This document shows, piece by piece, positions 8,757 through 25,338 of a stretch of DNA of 45,334 nucleotides. The DNA lies in contig JAJDCU010000077.1 of the NCBI GenBank assembly GCA_029260655.1, positions 1-45,334 on the forward strand. Reading direction: 5' to 3'. A program made the translations under genes and the position numbers. Under the pieces are notes generated by a model. That model did not search any database, had not been told where the DNA came from, and saw nothing but the letters and a program-made list of their open reading frames with translations. Origin of the DNA: Phycisphaeraceae bacterium. GTDB lineage: Bacteria > Planctomycetota > Phycisphaerae > Phycisphaerales > Phycisphaeraceae. Every line of letters begins with the position of its first letter. The first letter of the stretch is position 1.

Positions 8757-9482
8757 CTATCGCCGTCGTCTCAGACCAATCAGCACGGACCCGCAGGCCA
8801 GCAGCCCAAGGCTTGCCGGTTCGGGGATGACCACCTGGAAGAACGAGGTCAGCGAGACGGTGTCGCCGGGGGTCAGTGTGAAGGTGTGGTTGATCCCGAT
8901 GGTGCTCAGCGCGGCGGGACCGGGGATGGTGGGCCCGGGCAGGCCGACGTTGGTCGCTGGGATGTTCGCGGTGCCGCCTGGGAACGGGGCGCTGAAGCTA
9001 AACGGTGCGGTGATAATCGGCAAAGCGCTGACGCCGTCGATCAGGCCGTCAAATAATGGCGCTGCGCCGGCGTTGGCGACGGTGCCCCCCCCACCGTTTA
9101 CGTCGGTGACTGATCCACCCACGGACCCGCCGATCAAAGAACTGGGTGTGACAGGCGGTGCGATCGGGAGCGTGACGTTCAGGATGAACGTCTGAGTCAT
9201 CCCGGACACGTTGGTCAGGCCGAAGACGCCGTTGACGAATGGGTCGGTGTCGACGGTCATGTCCCAGGTCAGATTCCACATCCCGGGCATCATCATGTTG
9301 CCATCGAGGTCGAACTGATCGGGACTGCCGTTCGCAACGGCTGCGGGGCTCAGCGTCTGGGTGTTACCCATGACGCCGACTTGGATCTGCACATCGGGCG
9401 CGACGGCGGCAAAGGATGCGCTGGTGAAAAGACCGACTGTACAAAGCGCGACACCGGCCCTGAGGACTAACTTCAATGACAT
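8757..9482 (-). CDS. PEP-CTERM protein
   Basis: A 241-residue secreted protein with signal peptide (ending near SASFAA), a Thr/Gly/Pro-rich beta body and a C-terminal sorting signal IPEPASLGLLACGSVLIGLRRRR. The body has no recognised enzymatic motif; segments such as TFTLTPGDTVSLTSFFQVV suggest a beta-sandwich. GGAGTGGAGATAGTCCT precedes the ATG, and a TTGTAA-17-TATATT promoter lies 44 bases upstream. It is transcribed alone, with a terminator shared with the 38-residue lipoprotein gene. Confidence 0.85.
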   Translation of the reverse strand: MSLKLVLRAGVALCTVGLFTSASFAAVAPDVQIQVGVMGNTQTLSPAAVANGSPDQFDLDGNMMMPGMWNLTWDMTVDTDPFVNGVFGLTNVSGMTQTFILNVTLPIAPPVTPSSLIGGSVGGSVTDVNGGGGTVANAGAAPLFDGLIDGVSALPIITAPFSFSAPFPGGTANIPATNVGLPGPTIPGPAALSTIGINHTFTLTPGDTVSLTSFFQVVIPEPASLGLLACGSVLIGLRRRR

Positions 9483-9525
9483 AGGACTATCTCCACTCCA
9501 AATTCAAATCCCACCCATCAACTAT

Positions 9526-9554
9526 AATATACCTATATGCCGATACCATTACAA
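9526..9554 (-). promoter_or_regulatory. Promoter of the PEP-CTERM gene at 8757
   Basis: Minus strand: -35 TTGTAA (9549-9554), 17-base spacer, -10 TATATT (9526-9531) in a locally AT-rich stretch 44 bases upstream of the ATG. Confidence 0.55.
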
Positions 9555-9634
9555 TAGAATCGTCGAAAAAAAACGCAGAATAGCGGCCCCGTCACAAAGT
9601 CCATAAGTTGGTCTGAAACAGAAAGATGCGTCGG

Positions 9635-10279
9635 CTAGCGCGTGCAGGCTACCCCGTCCGTGATGGAAATTCTTCCCTGTAAGAACAGGTTTATTGCCTG
9701 GGGATAGGCCAGGCACTCCTGTTCAAACACGCGGGCGGCGAGGGTTTGGGGGGTATCATCATCCAGGACCGGACAGGTGCGCTGCACGAGGATCACGCCG
9801 GTGTCGTAAGTCTGGTCGGCGAAGTGGACCGTGCAGCCGGAGACCTTGCAGCCGGCGTCGAGGACAGCCTGGTGGACGTGCTGGCCGAACATCCCCTTAC
9901 CCCCGAACGCCGGGAGCAGCGCCGGGTGGATGTTCAGCACCCTGTGGACGAAGTCGTCGGGGATCGAAAGCAGGCAGAGGAACCCGGCCAGGCAGACCAG
10001 ATCGGCATTGCTGTCATGTACGAACTGGAAGACCGCTTGGGAAAAGGCTGCGGTGTCGACGTGGTCTTTGCGGGCAACCAGGTGGATCGGGATATCGAGC
10101 TTGCGCTGTATGAGCCTGTCGTAAGACGCCTGATTGGAGCAGACGGCGACGGCCAACTCGGCGTCCAGTTCGCCTGTTTCAATCTTCTTAGCCAGGTTCA
10201 CCAGCGTGGTGCCTCCTCCGCTGACCAACACGGCCAGACGGATCGGCTGATGACGGGGCTTGGGTACAACGACCGGCAT
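9635..10279 (-). CDS. purN: Phosphoribosylglycinamide formyltransferase
   Basis: Transfers a formyl group from 10-formyl-THF to GAR in purine biosynthesis. The 214-residue product shows IRLAVLVSGGGTTLVNL at the N-terminus, the catalytic NIHPALLP (Asn and His), TVHF and the catalytic Asp in TYDTGVILVQ. Length matches PurN (about 210). The SGGGTTL phosphate loop differs slightly from the common SGNGSNL form. ATG 10279 is preferred; the upstream ATG at 10312 would overlap the divergent gluQ. Other pur genes are absent. Confidence 0.9.
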   Translation of the reverse strand: MPVVVPKPRHQPIRLAVLVSGGGTTLVNLAKKIETGELDAELAVAVCSNQASYDRLIQRKLDIPIHLVARKDHVDTAAFSQAVFQFVHDSNADLVCLAGFLCLLSIPDDFVHRVLNIHPALLPAFGGKGMFGQHVHQAVLDAGCKVSGCTVHFADQTYDTGVILVQRTCPVLDDDTPQTLAARVFEQECLAYPQAINLFLQGRISITDGVACTR

Positions 10280-18768: not shown

Positions 18769-18841
18769 CCACGGCGATCTGCGATCATCCGCTAAACAAA
18801 TACTCACGGTTGTTGTAACACGACCCCGTCAGGTTTCCTTG

Positions 18842-19510
18842 CTAGTCCTGCAGGAACGGGTTGGTGGCGCGTTCGTTGGCGATGGAAGTTTCCGGCCCGT
18901 GGCCCGGGAGGACGCGGGTGGTGTCCGGGAGGGTCAATAGTTGCTCGTGGATGCTGCGCATCAGGGTCGGGCCATCGGAGGTCGGGAAGTCGTGCCGCCC
19001 GATCGACCCGGCGAAGAGGGTGTCGCCGACGATCGCGACGTTGTTTTCCCGCTGGTACAGGCAGACCCCGCCGGGGCTGTGGCCGGGCGTGTGCCGGACC
19101 TCGAAGTCGTTTCCTCCGAGCGTGAGGGTGTCGCCGTGGGTCATTGTCCCGGTCGGCTCAGGCGCTACGACACGATCGTCCAGGGCCGCGGACAGGTTCA
19201 GCATCGGGTCGGCCGGGAATGCCAGCTCATCGTGGTGGATCACGACCGGCGTCCCCGGATGCTCGGCGAGGATCTCTGCAAGCCCGCCGATATGATCGAC
19301 ATGGGCGTGGGTCAGAACGACCTTTTCGAGCTGAAACCCATTCTCGGCAATGTAGCGCAGCATATATCCGGGGTCGAACCCCGCGTCCACGATCCAGCAC
19401 GCACCGCCTTGTGGATCGCCCGCCGTATCAGAGGACAGGGTCGAAACGACGTAGCAGTTCGTCGCCCAGTCGCCCAGGCAAAACCTTCTGATCTTCAGTG
19501 TGTCCGGCAT
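18842..19510 (-). CDS. MBL-fold metallohydrolase (glyoxalase II-like)
   Basis: A 222-residue cytoplasmic metallo-beta-lactamase-fold hydrolase with THAHVDHIGG (HxHxDH), HTPGHSPGG, GDTLFAGSIGR and terminal GHGPET, giving a complete binuclear metal site. It is of the short glyoxalase-II/YcbL type, lacking the C-terminal hydroxyacyl-glutathione domain; the substrate is likely a thioester or related compound. The ATG at 19510 lies inside a 20-bp tandem duplication, so a second out-of-frame copy of the start lies 20 bases upstream. Confidence 0.85.
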   Translation of the reverse strand: MPDTLKIRRFCLGDWATNCYVVSTLSSDTAGDPQGGACWIVDAGFDPGYMLRYIAENGFQLEKVVLTHAHVDHIGGLAEILAEHPGTPVVIHHDELAFPADPMLNLSAALDDRVVAPEPTGTMTHGDTLTLGGNDFEVRHTPGHSPGGVCLYQRENNVAIVGDTLFAGSIGRHDFPTSDGPTLMRSIHEQLLTLPDTTRVLPGHGPETSIANERATNPFLQD

Positions 19511-19550
19511 AGAGATCGTGTGTCCGGCATAGAGATCGTGTGTTCGGGGG
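19498..19550. repeat. 20-bp tandem duplication over the MBL-hydrolase start
   Basis: Two perfect copies of tgtccggcatagagatcgtg (19501-19520 and 19521-19540) are followed by a partial third (tgttcgg). Each copy contains the complement of an ATG, at 19508-19510 and 19528-19530. Twenty is not a multiple of three, so the second ATG is out of frame. Confidence 0.9.
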
Positions 19551-20344: not shown

Positions 20345-20363
20345 AAGCGGGATGTTATCCGAA

Positions 20364-21452
20364 TCACACGTTGAACAGGAAGTGACAGACATCCCCGTCG
20401 CGCATCACGTATTCCTTGCCCTCGATCCGCATCTTCCCGGCCTCCTTGATCGCCTTCTCGGTCTTGTGCTCTTCGAGGTCGGCGACCGAATAAACTTCGA
20501 CGCGGATGAACCCGCGCTCGAAGTCGGTGTGGATCACCCCCGCCGCCTGAGGCCCGGTCGCGCCGATCGGGACCGTCCAAGCACGGACCTCCTTCGGCCC
20601 GGCGGTGAAATAGCTCTGTAACCCAAGCAGATCGTACGCCGCCCTCGCTAGTGAGTTCAGCGCCGGCTCATCGAGCCCGACGCTCTCCAGCAGCTCCGCG
20701 CGGTCGGCCTCATCAAGCTCCGCCAGCTCCGATTCGAGCTTGGCGCACACCGGGACCACCGCCCCGCCCTCTTCTTCCGCTCGATCACGCACACGTTTGA
20801 CCAGCTCGCTTTCGCCGTGCAGATCATCCTCGTCCACGTTCGCGACATACAGCACACGCTTGGCGGTAATGAACCCAAAGCTCTTGATCTGGGCCGCCTG
20901 CTTCTCATCCAGTTCGACCCCTCGGATCGGCTTGCCATCGCTTAGCCTTGCCAGACACTTCTCCAGCAGCGCCACCCGAGCCTTGGCGTCCTTGTCTCCC
21001 GTCCGCGCGGCCCGGGTCGCCTTGTCCATCGCCGACTCCACCGTCGCAAGGTCCGACAGCATCAGCTCCGTGTCGATCGTCTCGATATCCCGGATCGGGT
21101 CTACTTTCCCATCGACGTGAACCACATCCTCATCCTCAAAGCACCGCACCACGTGCAGCACCGCGTCCACATTTTTGATGTGCGAGAGGAACTTGTTGCC
21201 CAGCCCCTCGCCCTTGGACGCGCCGCGCACCAGCCCCGCGATATCGACCAGCCGAAGGATCGCCGGGATGACTTTTTCGGTTTCGATGTGGCTGCTAATC
21301 ACATCCAGCCGACCGTCCGGCACGGGCACAACCCCGACGTTCGGCTCGATCGTGCAGAACGGGTAATTCTCACTGGGAATCCCCGCCGCCGTCAGCGCAT
21401 TGAACAGCGTGGATTTGCCAACGTTCGGGAGACCGACAATGCCTGCTTCCAT
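20364..21452 (-). CDS. ychF: Redox-regulated ribosome-associated ATPase YchF
   Basis: A 362-residue Obg-family P-loop protein that hydrolyses ATP and binds ribosomes. Motifs: GLPNVGKST (Walker A, residues 7-15), the switch segment with [26 protein letters not shown] in the position of the NKxD base-recognition motif, a coiled-coil insertion (~130-190) and a C-terminal TGS domain ([31 protein letters not shown], ending [11 protein letters not shown]). Full length. No Shine-Dalgarno; a G-quadruplex-type tract begins ten bases upstream. A short relic of a second ychF lies 3 kb away at 24485. Confidence 0.95.
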
Positions 21453-21486: not shown

Positions 21487-21587
21487 TTGGTTTAGAGCGG
21501 GGCAGTGTAGTGCCGATATCCGGTCCCGCCAACCCGATGGATCCTCCTCAGCCGAGCATCAAGAATATTGACCCATTCTCACTCACT

Positions 21588-24098
21588 TCAATTTCTCGGA
21601 CGAGACAGCGACAGCGCACCGCCGAGCATTAGCAGCATCAGAGTCGCGGGTTCGGGCACGGCCGAGGTGGGCGGCAGGGTGCCGGCGTTCCAGTTGCCCA
21701 GGACGATGTTCAGGTCTTCGATCCCGATGAAACCGTCGCCGGAGGGGTCGGCCGCCGGGTCGCCGGGCGGGACGAACTGGTTCCAGTTGCTCAGGACGAC
21801 GTTCAGATCGGTAATCCCGACGAACCCGTCGCCGTCCAGGTCGCCGACGAGCTCATACAGGTATAGCGCGTCGCCGGGGTTCATGTCGAAGGTGGACACG
21901 CGATCATGACCTTGCGCATCTATGTTGAATTGTTGGATCCATTCGGGGACGAGCAGCGCATAGACCCCTTTGGCAGGTAGCGCGTTTAGCACCTCATAGC
22001 CTGCGCCGCCGAACTGTGAGGAGCGAGCCCAGCCGCCCAGTTGCAGTTCGGTTAGATAATCGAAATACCCAATGCCGATGCGTGGTTGCGGCAGGGTTTG
22101 GTCCGTCAGGTTTACCATAAGCAGCATGTCGAAGCCGTCCCATGCCTGGCCTAGTCCCGCCGGGCCGTCCTCCATCATGTATAACGCCGTGCCGGCCCAG
22201 ACCGGCGCCTGGCTGACCAGCGCCGCCAGTTCGGGATCGTCCGCGGACAGGCTCGACAAGCCGCAGACATCCGCCCCGTCGATAAGGTTGGGGATGTAGG
22301 GCGTTCGTTTTTGGCTGTAGCTGTAAAGATCTGGATGGATGAACGGATTAAACGTACGGGGGCCGTAGTTGTTGCCGTTTTCATCGATCGGGTAGTACTG
22401 GGTGCCGCTAGCGAGCGAACCGCTCCACACGTCGGTAGTATTTCGGCGGAAAGAGAACTTCCCGTCGTACAGCGCGTCGACCACAGGATTAGCTGGCGCG
22501 TCGCCGCGCCGGGTGTTGACGGTGCCGCTGCCGCTGACCGACGTAGCTGAGATGAAGACGGTGCCACCCCCGCCGGCGCCGCCTTCGCCGCCGTTGCCGC
22601 TGGCCGCGCCGCTACCGCCGGTCCCGCCGTGTCCGCCGCCGCCGGCGCCGCCACCACCGCCGCCACCGCCACCGGTCCCACCATAGCTGCCGTGGTTAAC
22701 GCCAGCCTCGCCACCGAAACCGGATGTGCCTGCCGTCGCGCTCCCCCCTAAGGCCGCTCCACTCCCACCGGGCTTGCCACTCCCACCCGCTGCACCTGTA
22801 GGGGATACCCGCGTATCGAACGCGCCCACCGCACCGTTACCTCCGGCAGAGCCGTTCGCGCCGGTAGTCCCTGTGAATCCGGCCAGGCCCCCGGTCCCGG
22901 ACGTGGCGGGTTCGGGCCCGTAGGGGCTGCCTTGTGCGAGCAGGGAGCCGCCGTCCAAATGAAGCTGGCCCAGCACCTGGAGCTCGAATGCGCCGCCCCC
23001 GGCATCACCGCCGCGTCCGCCGTCGCCCCCGGCCCCGCCGTCGCCGCCACCGCCGCCATTACCGCCCTTCCCCGCCAAACCCCCTGCCCCACCGGCGTCA
23101 CCTGTGGCACCGAAAGGCCAGACGAAGTTATTGCCGGCACCGCCGCCGCCCCCGCCCCCACCGCCGCCACGGGTACCGGCATCACCGCCGCCGCCGCCGC
23201 CGCCGCCTTGGCCACCCGAGCCACCGCTACCGCCGGAGAGGGACTGACCCTGCTTAGACCTCCCGGTTAAGCCATCATTTCCGTTACCTCCGGCCGATCC
23301 GTGCCCGCCGTTGCCGCCGTTGCCACCGGCGTGTCCACCGGCACCGCCGCCGCCGCCACTACCGCCCACGCCCCAACCCGTGCCGTTGGGTCCACCGCTA
23401 CCGCCAACGGCGTTGTGCAGTGTGTCGTAGATCGAGCCACCGGTCCCGCCGGCCCCGGCATTCGTTGATGACGGCGTGAACGTCCGCAGGCTGCTACCGA
23501 AGCCCTCCCAGCCGGCCCCCCCTGACCCGCCTTGGCCCCCGTTGTAAGTCGCCCCGACATCGCCGTGGTAGTAGTCCCAGCCGTAGGCCCCGCTCCCGCC
23601 ATCCTCGCCGAGGGTGTTGATGGCGCCCCCAGCTCCGCCGGGCCCGCCCGTGCCCGTAACACTGTCACCGACCCCGCCGCCGCCGCCGGTCCCGGTCGCT
23701 CCGCCAGCAGCTCCGGCTCCGCCGACGCCGGCGCGCCCCCCGCCGGCTCGGCCCTGGGTGCCGCTTCCCGACATATCGATCGTCCCGGCCAGTGTCGCGT
23801 TGTTGGCGACGATGAAGCGTACGGGGCGGCTATAATTACCCAAACTTAGCGTGGCAGTGACCGTGTCACCGCTATTGACGGTAAAGTCGCCGTGTACCAG
23901 GTATTGGCGCGCGTGGTCCTGACCAGTGCCGCCATCGGTGATCTGCACGCCGTGCCAATCCACACTCGCGGCGAACGCGCCGCCGTTACTTAGCTGACCC
24001 GTGTCCGGATTGACGGTCAGCACATCTGCACGGGCAATCCCGGACCAGACAAAACACAACGACACCATAAAGCATCCAATGCTCCTGTTGGTAAGCAT
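21588..24098 (-). CDS. Giant glycine-rich PEP-CTERM protein with dockerin-like repeats
   Basis: An 836-residue secreted protein. Order: signal peptide (~1-24, ending GIARA), a ~85-residue beta domain (TVNSGDTVTATLSLGNYSRP), a glycine-rich block of roughly 400 residues built from GGxGG and GGAGG units, a ~220-residue non-repetitive domain (from about TVFISATSV to the Tyr-rich DALYLYELV), two dockerin-like EF-hand repeats (GDLDGDGFVGITDLNVVLSN and DPSGDGFIGIEDLNIVLGN) and a PEP-CTERM tail (VPEPATLMLLMLGGALSLSR). The Gly block resembles mycobacterial PE_PGRS proteins in composition but lacks a PE domain. GAGGGAACCGCC precedes ATG 24098. Probably a surface or matrix protein with calcium-binding repeats; function unknown. 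Confidence 0.85.
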   Translation of the reverse strand: MLTNRSIGCFMVSLCFVWSGIARADVLTVNPDTGQLSNGGAFAASVDWHGVQITDGGTGQDHARQYLVHGDFTVNSGDTVTATLSLGNYSRPVRFIVANNATLAGTIDMSGSGTQGRAGGGRAGVGGAGAAGGATGTGGGGGVGDSVTGTGGPGGAGGAINTLGEDGGSGAYGWDYYHGDVGATYNGGQGGSGGAGWEGFGSSLRTFTPSSTNAGAGGTGGSIYDTLHNAVGGSGGPNGTGWGVGGSGGGGGAGGHAGGNGGNGGHGSAGGNGNDGLTGRSKQGQSLSGGSGGSGGQGGGGGGGGDAGTRGGGGGGGGGGAGNNFVWPFGATGDAGGAGGLAGKGGNGGGGGDGGAGGDGGRGGDAGGGAFELQVLGQLHLDGGSLLAQGSPYGPEPATSGTGGLAGFTGTTGANGSAGGNGAVGAFDTRVSPTGAAGGSGKPGGSGAALGGSATAGTSGFGGEAGVNHGSYGGTGGGGGGGGGAGGGGHGGTGGSGAASGNGGEGGAGGGGTVFISATSVSGSGTVNTRRGDAPANPVVDALYDGKFSFRRNTTDVWSGSLASGTQYYPIDENGNNYGPRTFNPFIHPDLYSYSQKRTPYIPNLIDGADVCGLSSLSADDPELAALVSQAPVWAGTALYMMEDGPAGLGQAWDGFDMLLMVNLTDQTLPQPRIGIGYFDYLTELQLGGWARSSQFGGAGYEVLNALPAKGVYALLVPEWIQQFNIDAQGHDRVSTFDMNPGDALYLYELVGDLDGDGFVGITDLNVVLSNWNQFVPPGDPAADPSGDGFIGIEDLNIVLGNWNAGTLPPTSAVPEPATLMLLMLGGALSLSRPRN

Positions 24099-24484
24099 GG
24101 CGGTTCCCTCACCGGTAAAGGATGATGAAGTTGTTTTTCACACGATGGCGATGACCGGGTGTGTTGCAGATGGCCGATCGGGACGTGGCACTCAAAGCAG
24201 TCGCTGGGCATCCGCCAGAGTAAGCGCATACGACAGCCGCAACACAGTTGAAAATCTCACGGGCCGGAATCAAGCCAAACATGTTTAGAATCCCCAGCCG
24301 CCCTGAGGATTGAACATCAAAGCAAGTTACTCGTATAACGCGCCGCGGCGACCACGTCAATACCATATTATCTTTTTATAGGCTCGGGCACCGGCCACCA
24401 TTTACCGCCTGGGAATAGGCGGGGGCTGGGCGTGATCGAACCGGGGTTTAGCGGCCCCGGAGAAGCCGCTCTCATGGTCGCTTA
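24099..24484. other. Intergenic stretch without recognisable gene
   Basis: About 390 bases between the ychF relic and the giant Gly-rich gene. Short frames on both strands lack good starts or homology. No tRNA, CRISPR or terminator was found. It presumably holds the upstream control region of the Gly-rich gene, but no convincing -35/-10 pair was identified. Confidence 0.5.
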
Positions 24485-24549
24485 ATCCGACAGCATCAGT
24501 TCCGTGTCGATCGTCTCGATATCCCGGATCGGATCGACCTTCCATCAAC
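24485..24549 (-). pseudogene. Relic of a second ychF (about 22 codons)
   Basis: On the minus strand this reads [22 protein letters not shown] and then stops, matching an internal segment of YchF encoded at about 21051-21117. Against the intact gene I count six synonymous third-position changes (e.g. GAG/GAA, GAC/GAT, GTA/GTC), no amino-acid change, and one single-base deletion. The matching segment ends at a TAA where ychF continues LATVE. Its upstream end supplies the TGA stop of the adjacent PEP-CTERM gene. It appears to be what remains of a diverged ychF copy. Confidence 0.75.
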
Positions 24550-25288
24550 GCCTTCGCCTTACACAGAGCTCCGCACCGGCCATCAGCAGGGCTATCGTCG
24601 AGGGCTCCGGCACTGTGAAGATGCGGGCCTGATCGATCCCCAGTTCGGCGTGCAGGTCGAAGGTAACGGAGTTCAGGTCGAAGGCGATGGTCGCCGAATC
24701 GGTGCCGGGCAGTGTCTCGAAGCCCCGGGTCGTACTGCCCGTGGGATACGTAACTGCGGGGAGTCCAACTGGGAATCCGTCACTGCCATCAAGGTAAGGC
24801 GGGTGCAGCGCCATGCCCACGATGATTTCACCTGGATCAAATGTCACACCACCGGCAAGCGAGATGATGCCGCCGGCCGGATCGAAGTGAACGATATAAG
24901 TATGAACAAACAATCCTGGGGGAAGGACATCCAGTGGCCCGGCCGGAAACTGAATACCCGGCCCAAAGGCGTCCACGAACAAGGGCCCCGCCAGAAACTT
25001 GCTGCCTTCATCAATGATGCGGATCTCGGTGGAGCTTTCAAAAGCTCCCGACACGAGGGACGGCGGTGGCGCGACCTCCACCATGGCTCCTGATGTGGCC
25101 AGGATGTCGGCTTGCGCCTGACCAGCCAACATGAATGTCAACACGCAGAGAAGACCCCAACGCATGCGGTGTCTCGTGGCAGCACTTGAAGCCTTGAGCA
25201 GCTCTTTCAATCGATCAGTCGAACGGTGAGTAATCTGCGCAGTCAAAATCACGACAGTCCCGGTGTACAACGCACGTAAATCATGCAT
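24545..25288 (-). CDS. PEP-CTERM protein with extended N-terminus
   Basis: A 247-residue exported protein with PEP-CTERM tail VPEPSTIALLMAGAELCVRRRR. The best ribosome site, GAGGAGG eight bases before ATG 25288, gives about 41 residues (MHDLRALYTGTVVILTAQIT...) ahead of the canonical signal peptide MRWGLLCVLTFMLAGQAQA. A start at 25165 would give a normal signal peptide but has no good Shine-Dalgarno. The body (~60-220) is beta-rich, with no recognised domain; it contains FDPGEIIVGMALHPPYLDGSDGF. Its TGA stop lies at the edge of the ychF relic, so the 3' end may be a recombination junction. Confidence 0.78.
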   Translation of the reverse strand: MHDLRALYTGTVVILTAQITHRSTDRLKELLKASSAATRHRMRWGLLCVLTFMLAGQAQADILATSGAMVEVAPPPSLVSGAFESSTEIRIIDEGSKFLAGPLFVDAFGPGIQFPAGPLDVLPPGLFVHTYIVHFDPAGGIISLAGGVTFDPGEIIVGMALHPPYLDGSDGFPVGLPAVTYPTGSTTRGFETLPGTDSATIAFDLNSVTFDLHAELGIDQARIFTVPEPSTIALLMAGAELCVRRRR

Positions 25289-25306
25289 GTTCCCGCCCTC
25301 CTCTTG

Positions 25307-25338
25307 TGAAATGAAACGCACTTGAAATGAAACGCACC
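25307..25338. repeat. Tandem 16-bp repeat in the leader of the PEP-CTERM gene
   Basis: tgaaatgaaacgcact is followed directly by tgaaatgaaacgcacc (25307-25322, 25323-25338). Adjoining it is the palindrome ACCGGC-TG-GCCGGT at 25336-25349. Both lie between the candidate promoter and the start codon at 25288. Confidence 0.85.

Follow-up and report, generated by a model that had tools for sequence, protein, structure and literature searches.

A 65-base piece of the gene ychF lies between two genes for PEP-CTERM proteins in the genome of a Phycisphaeraceae bacterium, and with a probability of about 0.6 we read this relic as a scar, left when illegitimate recombination fused part of a diverged ychF to the 3' terminus of a resident PEP-CTERM gene. 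Coordinates refer to the window, the whole stretch of 45,334 nucleotides that was analysed, unless a locus is named. The features on which the argument turns are as follows.

20345-20363, no strand: lineage-specific junction of rsmG and ychF, with 19 bases between the rsmG start and the ychF stop
20364-21452, minus strand: intact, single-copy ychF (redox-regulated ATPase YchF; TIGR00092, E 2e-144; one match in its own genome)
21052-21117, minus strand: segment of the intact resident ychF that is the blastn partner of the relic
21520-21587, no strand: approximate second junction, upstream of ychF
21588-24098, minus strand: Gly-rich PEP-CTERM gene, between the intact ychF and the relic (TIGR02595, 17.8 bits; cut-off 16)
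24465-24485, minus strand: possible decayed continuation of the relic, with ATGGTCGC as in the ychF of congener G003
24486-24550, minus strand: ychF relic, internal codons of ychF (21 complete, residues about 112-133)
24545-25321, minus strand: second PEP-CTERM gene, with its stop codon within the relic (TIGR02595, 23.5 bits; cut-off 16)

Using blastn, we aligned the relic to the intact ychF on the same strand with 60 of 66 identities and one gap (E about 1e-20 against the window, 8e-19 against the whole genome). A search of the relic with its flanks, a 241-base query, against that genome (3.52 Mb, 83 contigs) returned ychF as the unique match; the runner-up had an E of 0.2, so the similarity is not due to chance. 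In a codon alignment over the 21 complete codons, the relic differs from the resident gene by five substitutions (resident to relic: GTC to GTT, AAA to AAG, GTA to GTC, GAC to GAT and GAG to GAA), all of them synonymous and at third positions, and by a one-base deletion in a GGG codon. A first-pass annotation, made from the letters of the window, had described a 65-base match with six synonymous changes, one deletion and no amino-acid change; the match is real, and the deletion and the lack of amino-acid change stand, but its coordinates were off by one and the substitutions number five. The same annotation had advised the whole-genome search just described.

The relic is thus derived from ychF, with homology that is statistically secure and in the coding frame. 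It is a pseudogene fragment that has lost its coding capacity: it keeps 65 of the gene's 1,089 bases, carries the deletion and lacks a continuation on the right, where no homology to ychF was found beyond 24550. Leftward continuation over 24465-24485 was weak and not significant in an anchored extension test (p about 0.1), and we rejected an extension of the relic to 24465. We also considered the sequence left of the relic as what is left of a gyrA promoter: a conserved box, GGTCGCT, at 24476 also occurs before gyrA in four genomes, but it may equally belong to a ychF continuation. Comparison of the sequence left of the relic with the regions upstream of gyrA was negative for the resident genome, G003 and G005, and gave a score of 35 with congener G004 that random segments did not reach. 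The stretch concerned, 24381-24471, is about 64% similar to the G004 sequence (L065 10625-10712), a score unreached by about 2,900 random segments.

The relic supplies the end of the second PEP-CTERM gene, as had been proposed from the letters: the TGA at 24545-24547 lies inside the last matching bases. At this place the resident ychF reads GTC GAT, and the relic and G003 read GTT GAT, which places TGA in the PEP-CTERM reading frame. The sorting motif of the protein is complete ahead of this stop, and beyond providing the stop codon for a gene with a complete sorting signal the relic would have no function.

The pattern of substitution bears on where the relic came from. Its 5 synonymous changes fall in 14.3 sites (pS 0.35, dS about 0.47), and over the same codons the resident gene differs from its congeners with a pS of 0.33-0.61. 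Only 0.24 of random single substitutions in the segment would be synonymous, or 0.30 with transition bias, giving a probability of 0.001-0.002 that five of five are synonymous by chance; the earlier statement that the donor was under coding selection before its reduction to the relic is supported by this test. Under neutral evolution since its split from the resident ychF, the relic should have gathered 6-23 non-synonymous changes, the range corresponding to the assignment of a quarter to all of the relic-resident divergence to the relic branch, and none was observed. At 95% confidence its neutral divergence is no more than 0.06 per site, against a dS of 0.47. Synonymous changes with no non-synonymous ones exclude the reading of the relic as a neutrally decayed copy of the resident gene, and zero against 6-23 implies a recent origin from another ychF allele, a functional one. 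From five substitutions, on which the divergence argument rests, the relic appears to have left a functional ychF recently, one about as far from the resident gene as that of another congeneric species. Its codons form a patchwork: the first six (GTT GAT GG- AAG GTC GAT) are as in G003, and those that follow are as in the resident gene or G004, one codon differing from the resident.

The chromosome around the relic has been rearranged in this lineage alone, with loss of the zinc-ribbon gene, a new junction between rsmG and ychF and relocation of a block. A DegT-type aminotransferase gene adjoins ychF in five of five congeners (loci L062-L066), and the zinc-ribbon gene comes next after ychF in all four whose contig reaches past it. 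Here, homology to the congeners ends near 21516-21540, where their gene order would place the zinc-ribbon gene next; this genome lacks the gene. The aminotransferase gene instead lies on contig C62, with rodA following 180 bases later (L180 10004-10184). In G003, G004 and G005 the gene after rsmG is rodA. On a single contig of G005, 50 kb separate rsmG from ychF, a stretch bounded by rodA at one end and the aminotransferase gene at the other. The junctions of rsmG with ychF and of the aminotransferase gene with rodA are reciprocal. On the simplest reading, the block from rodA to the aminotransferase gene was excised, its own ends were fused and it came to lie at another site. Three features found in this lineage only, the relic, the zinc-ribbon loss and the new junction at ychF, fall within 5 kb in the window.

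No ychF remnant was found at the junction of the aminotransferase gene and rodA on C62, and the idea that the relic is a native piece of ychF cut by excision of the block is unsupported. We also noted a REP-like element, about 73 bases long and dispersed, whose ends are inverted repeats (TTTAGCGGGCGATCGCAG...CCGCCGCTAAACGG); it has about 45 genomic matches. One copy sits exactly at the junction of the aminotransferase gene and rodA (G000 C62, L180 10055-10136) and a partial copy at 18772-18798 of the window; the element was absent from the gaps examined in congeners. Separately, a 20-base unit, GTGTCCGGCATAGAGATCGT, forms a perfect head-to-tail repeat at 19500-19539, at the start of a metallo-hydrolase gene.

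The interval between ychF and gyrA varies within the genus: one species lacks a surface-protein gene there, two others have one each, and the present genome has two. In G005 the end of the zinc-ribbon gene stands directly before gyrA; in G004 a homologue of the second PEP-CTERM gene, with 71-72% identity, lies between them (order ychF-zinc ribbon-PEP-gyrA); and in G003 the same place is taken by a Gly-rich PEP-CTERM-like gene, the DNA upstream of which is homologous to that before the Gly-rich gene of the window. In the family outgroups G009, G012, G015 and G020, ychF and gyrA are a few hundred bases apart. The first-pass annotation had suggested that the PEP-CTERM genes arrived as an island with, or through, ychF, and had looked to gene order around ychF to decide. 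That comparison does not support the suggestion: the interval in G004 and G003 already holds a PEP-CTERM-type gene without the relic, which shows that genes and relic are separable and need not have come together. Two further observations concern the proteins encoded here. The Gly-rich protein has a weak dockerin-like segment at residues 753-806, ahead of its sorting signal. The zinc-ribbon gene of the congeners (L064 9048-9749, minus strand; L065 about 9047-9708) has a weak YcxB-like Pfam match, and its product is probably membrane-anchored.

Taking matches with E below 1e-6 as secure, we searched for the relic in other genomes. It was absent from every congener, in which all secure matches fall at ychF, and across 40 related and 51 family genomes the secure matches had the strength and identity expected of an intact ychF. 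A donor search in the 51 family genomes and 400 genomes of the order, congeners included, gave 91% as the best full-length match, a value found in the resident ychF and in G004, and no near-identical segment was found in that set. That no ychF in the 400 order genomes came closer than 91% over the full length counts against the scar reading. A scan of named genomes returned distant ones only; the nearest are Phycisphaerae metagenome assemblies. Viral contigs, phages and plasmids gave no match. A mobile element or att site was considered and rejected, the window containing no tRNA and no Rfam hit.

The main rival to the recombination scar is that a second ychF once resided here. A tandem duplication or merodiploid (ychF-GlyPEP-ychF-zinc ribbon-PEP-gyrA) would have maintained two functional copies until a deletion left 65 bases of one and removed the zinc-ribbon gene as well. 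Several observations suit such a history: the relic has the orientation of ychF; it is flanked by the two PEP-CTERM genes and lies towards gyrA, where comparison with G004 would place the region originally neighbouring ychF; the zinc-ribbon gene is missing; and divergence by synonymous changes only is compatible with a second functional copy. The relic could still derive from a lost copy of this kind. However, in all 40 genomes where ychF was matched it is present once, never twice, and because the divergence of the relic is as large as that between species, the duplicate would need to have persisted for about the age of a species, and in this lineage only. These copy numbers lend no support to the idea that a whole second ychF was once resident here, and we regard the explanation as unlikely.

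The relic might alternatively have been templated from the resident ychF during repair, the resident gene being overwritten later by recombination with a congener so that the relic preserves the older allele. The central 46 bases of the relic are a single base off the resident copy, and the GGG AAA of the resident gene also occurs in G005, suggestive of import; yet two events are required and informative sites are few, while templating without the overwriting step is excluded by the zero non-synonymous changes, and we find the scheme improbable. The assembly is a draft of 83 contigs, and reads of a related strain could in principle have been joined here by assembly or binning. Had a shared repeat caused the join, ychF would continue on one side of the relic, whereas both flanks differ from it; moreover, the reciprocal junctions, of rsmG with ychF and of the aminotransferase gene with rodA on C62, would rarely be produced by error, and genome contamination is 0.86%, all of which makes an artefact very improbable. 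We give hardly any credence to selection on the relic as such, for instance as a 3' untranslated region or an RNA mimicking ychF mRNA. It would be transcribed in the same sense as ychF and form the 3' terminus of the PEP-CTERM message, but it has no Rfam match, folds no better than its shuffles (z -0.46), coincides with no terminator-like site and is absent from all relatives; a structured RNA or terminator was rejected on the same folding and terminator results.

We therefore favour the recombination scar, and the first-pass view that the relic marks a recombination junction is supported together with a diverged donor. Its source would most likely be a ychF allele of a congeneric species not yet sampled. 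Foreign ychF DNA, single- or double-stranded, may have been incorporated at microhomologies during repair or replication, either in the same event as the rearrangement or in a later one. The chief value of the relic is as a neat illustration that, where a fragment differs by synonymous changes only, the age and the origin of a recombination scar can be read from it; of greater use, though incidental, is the variable ychF-gyrA interval together with the lineage-specific relocation of the block, about 50 kb in G005. A wider generalization, which we offer as speculative and rather doubtful, is that uncultured Phycisphaerae take up very short patches of their relatives' DNA at non-homologous places, and that the scars keep a record of donors and of the succession of events in a ychF-gyrA interval that undergoes repeated rearrangement and accumulates genes for cell-surface proteins.

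Products like this one are known from two kinds of event, homology-facilitated and short-patch double illegitimate recombination. Homology-facilitated illegitimate recombination of foreign DNA is described for naturally competent species and for conjugation in E. coli (PMC3240628). As outlined there, such events have one homologous and one illegitimate end and could bring an end derived from a congener's ychF into the interval; unlike them, the relic has no extended homologous anchor at either end, and its donor segment is short, at 65 bases. Partial gene duplications of the ordinary sort, and gene remnants at rearrangement junctions, offer another likeness, in that a short fragment of a neighbouring gene lies beside lineage-specific junctions, but the relic is as diverged as another species' copy and its differences are synonymous only. 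Short-patch double illegitimate recombination has been described in Acinetobacter baylyi. For the relic, microhomology at both junctions is presumed, the comparison being with congeners whose DNA is not alignable there. The likeness lies in short patches that end abruptly on both sides and have their source elsewhere in the genome or in outside DNA. The event is of an ordinary kind, with an unusually clean record.
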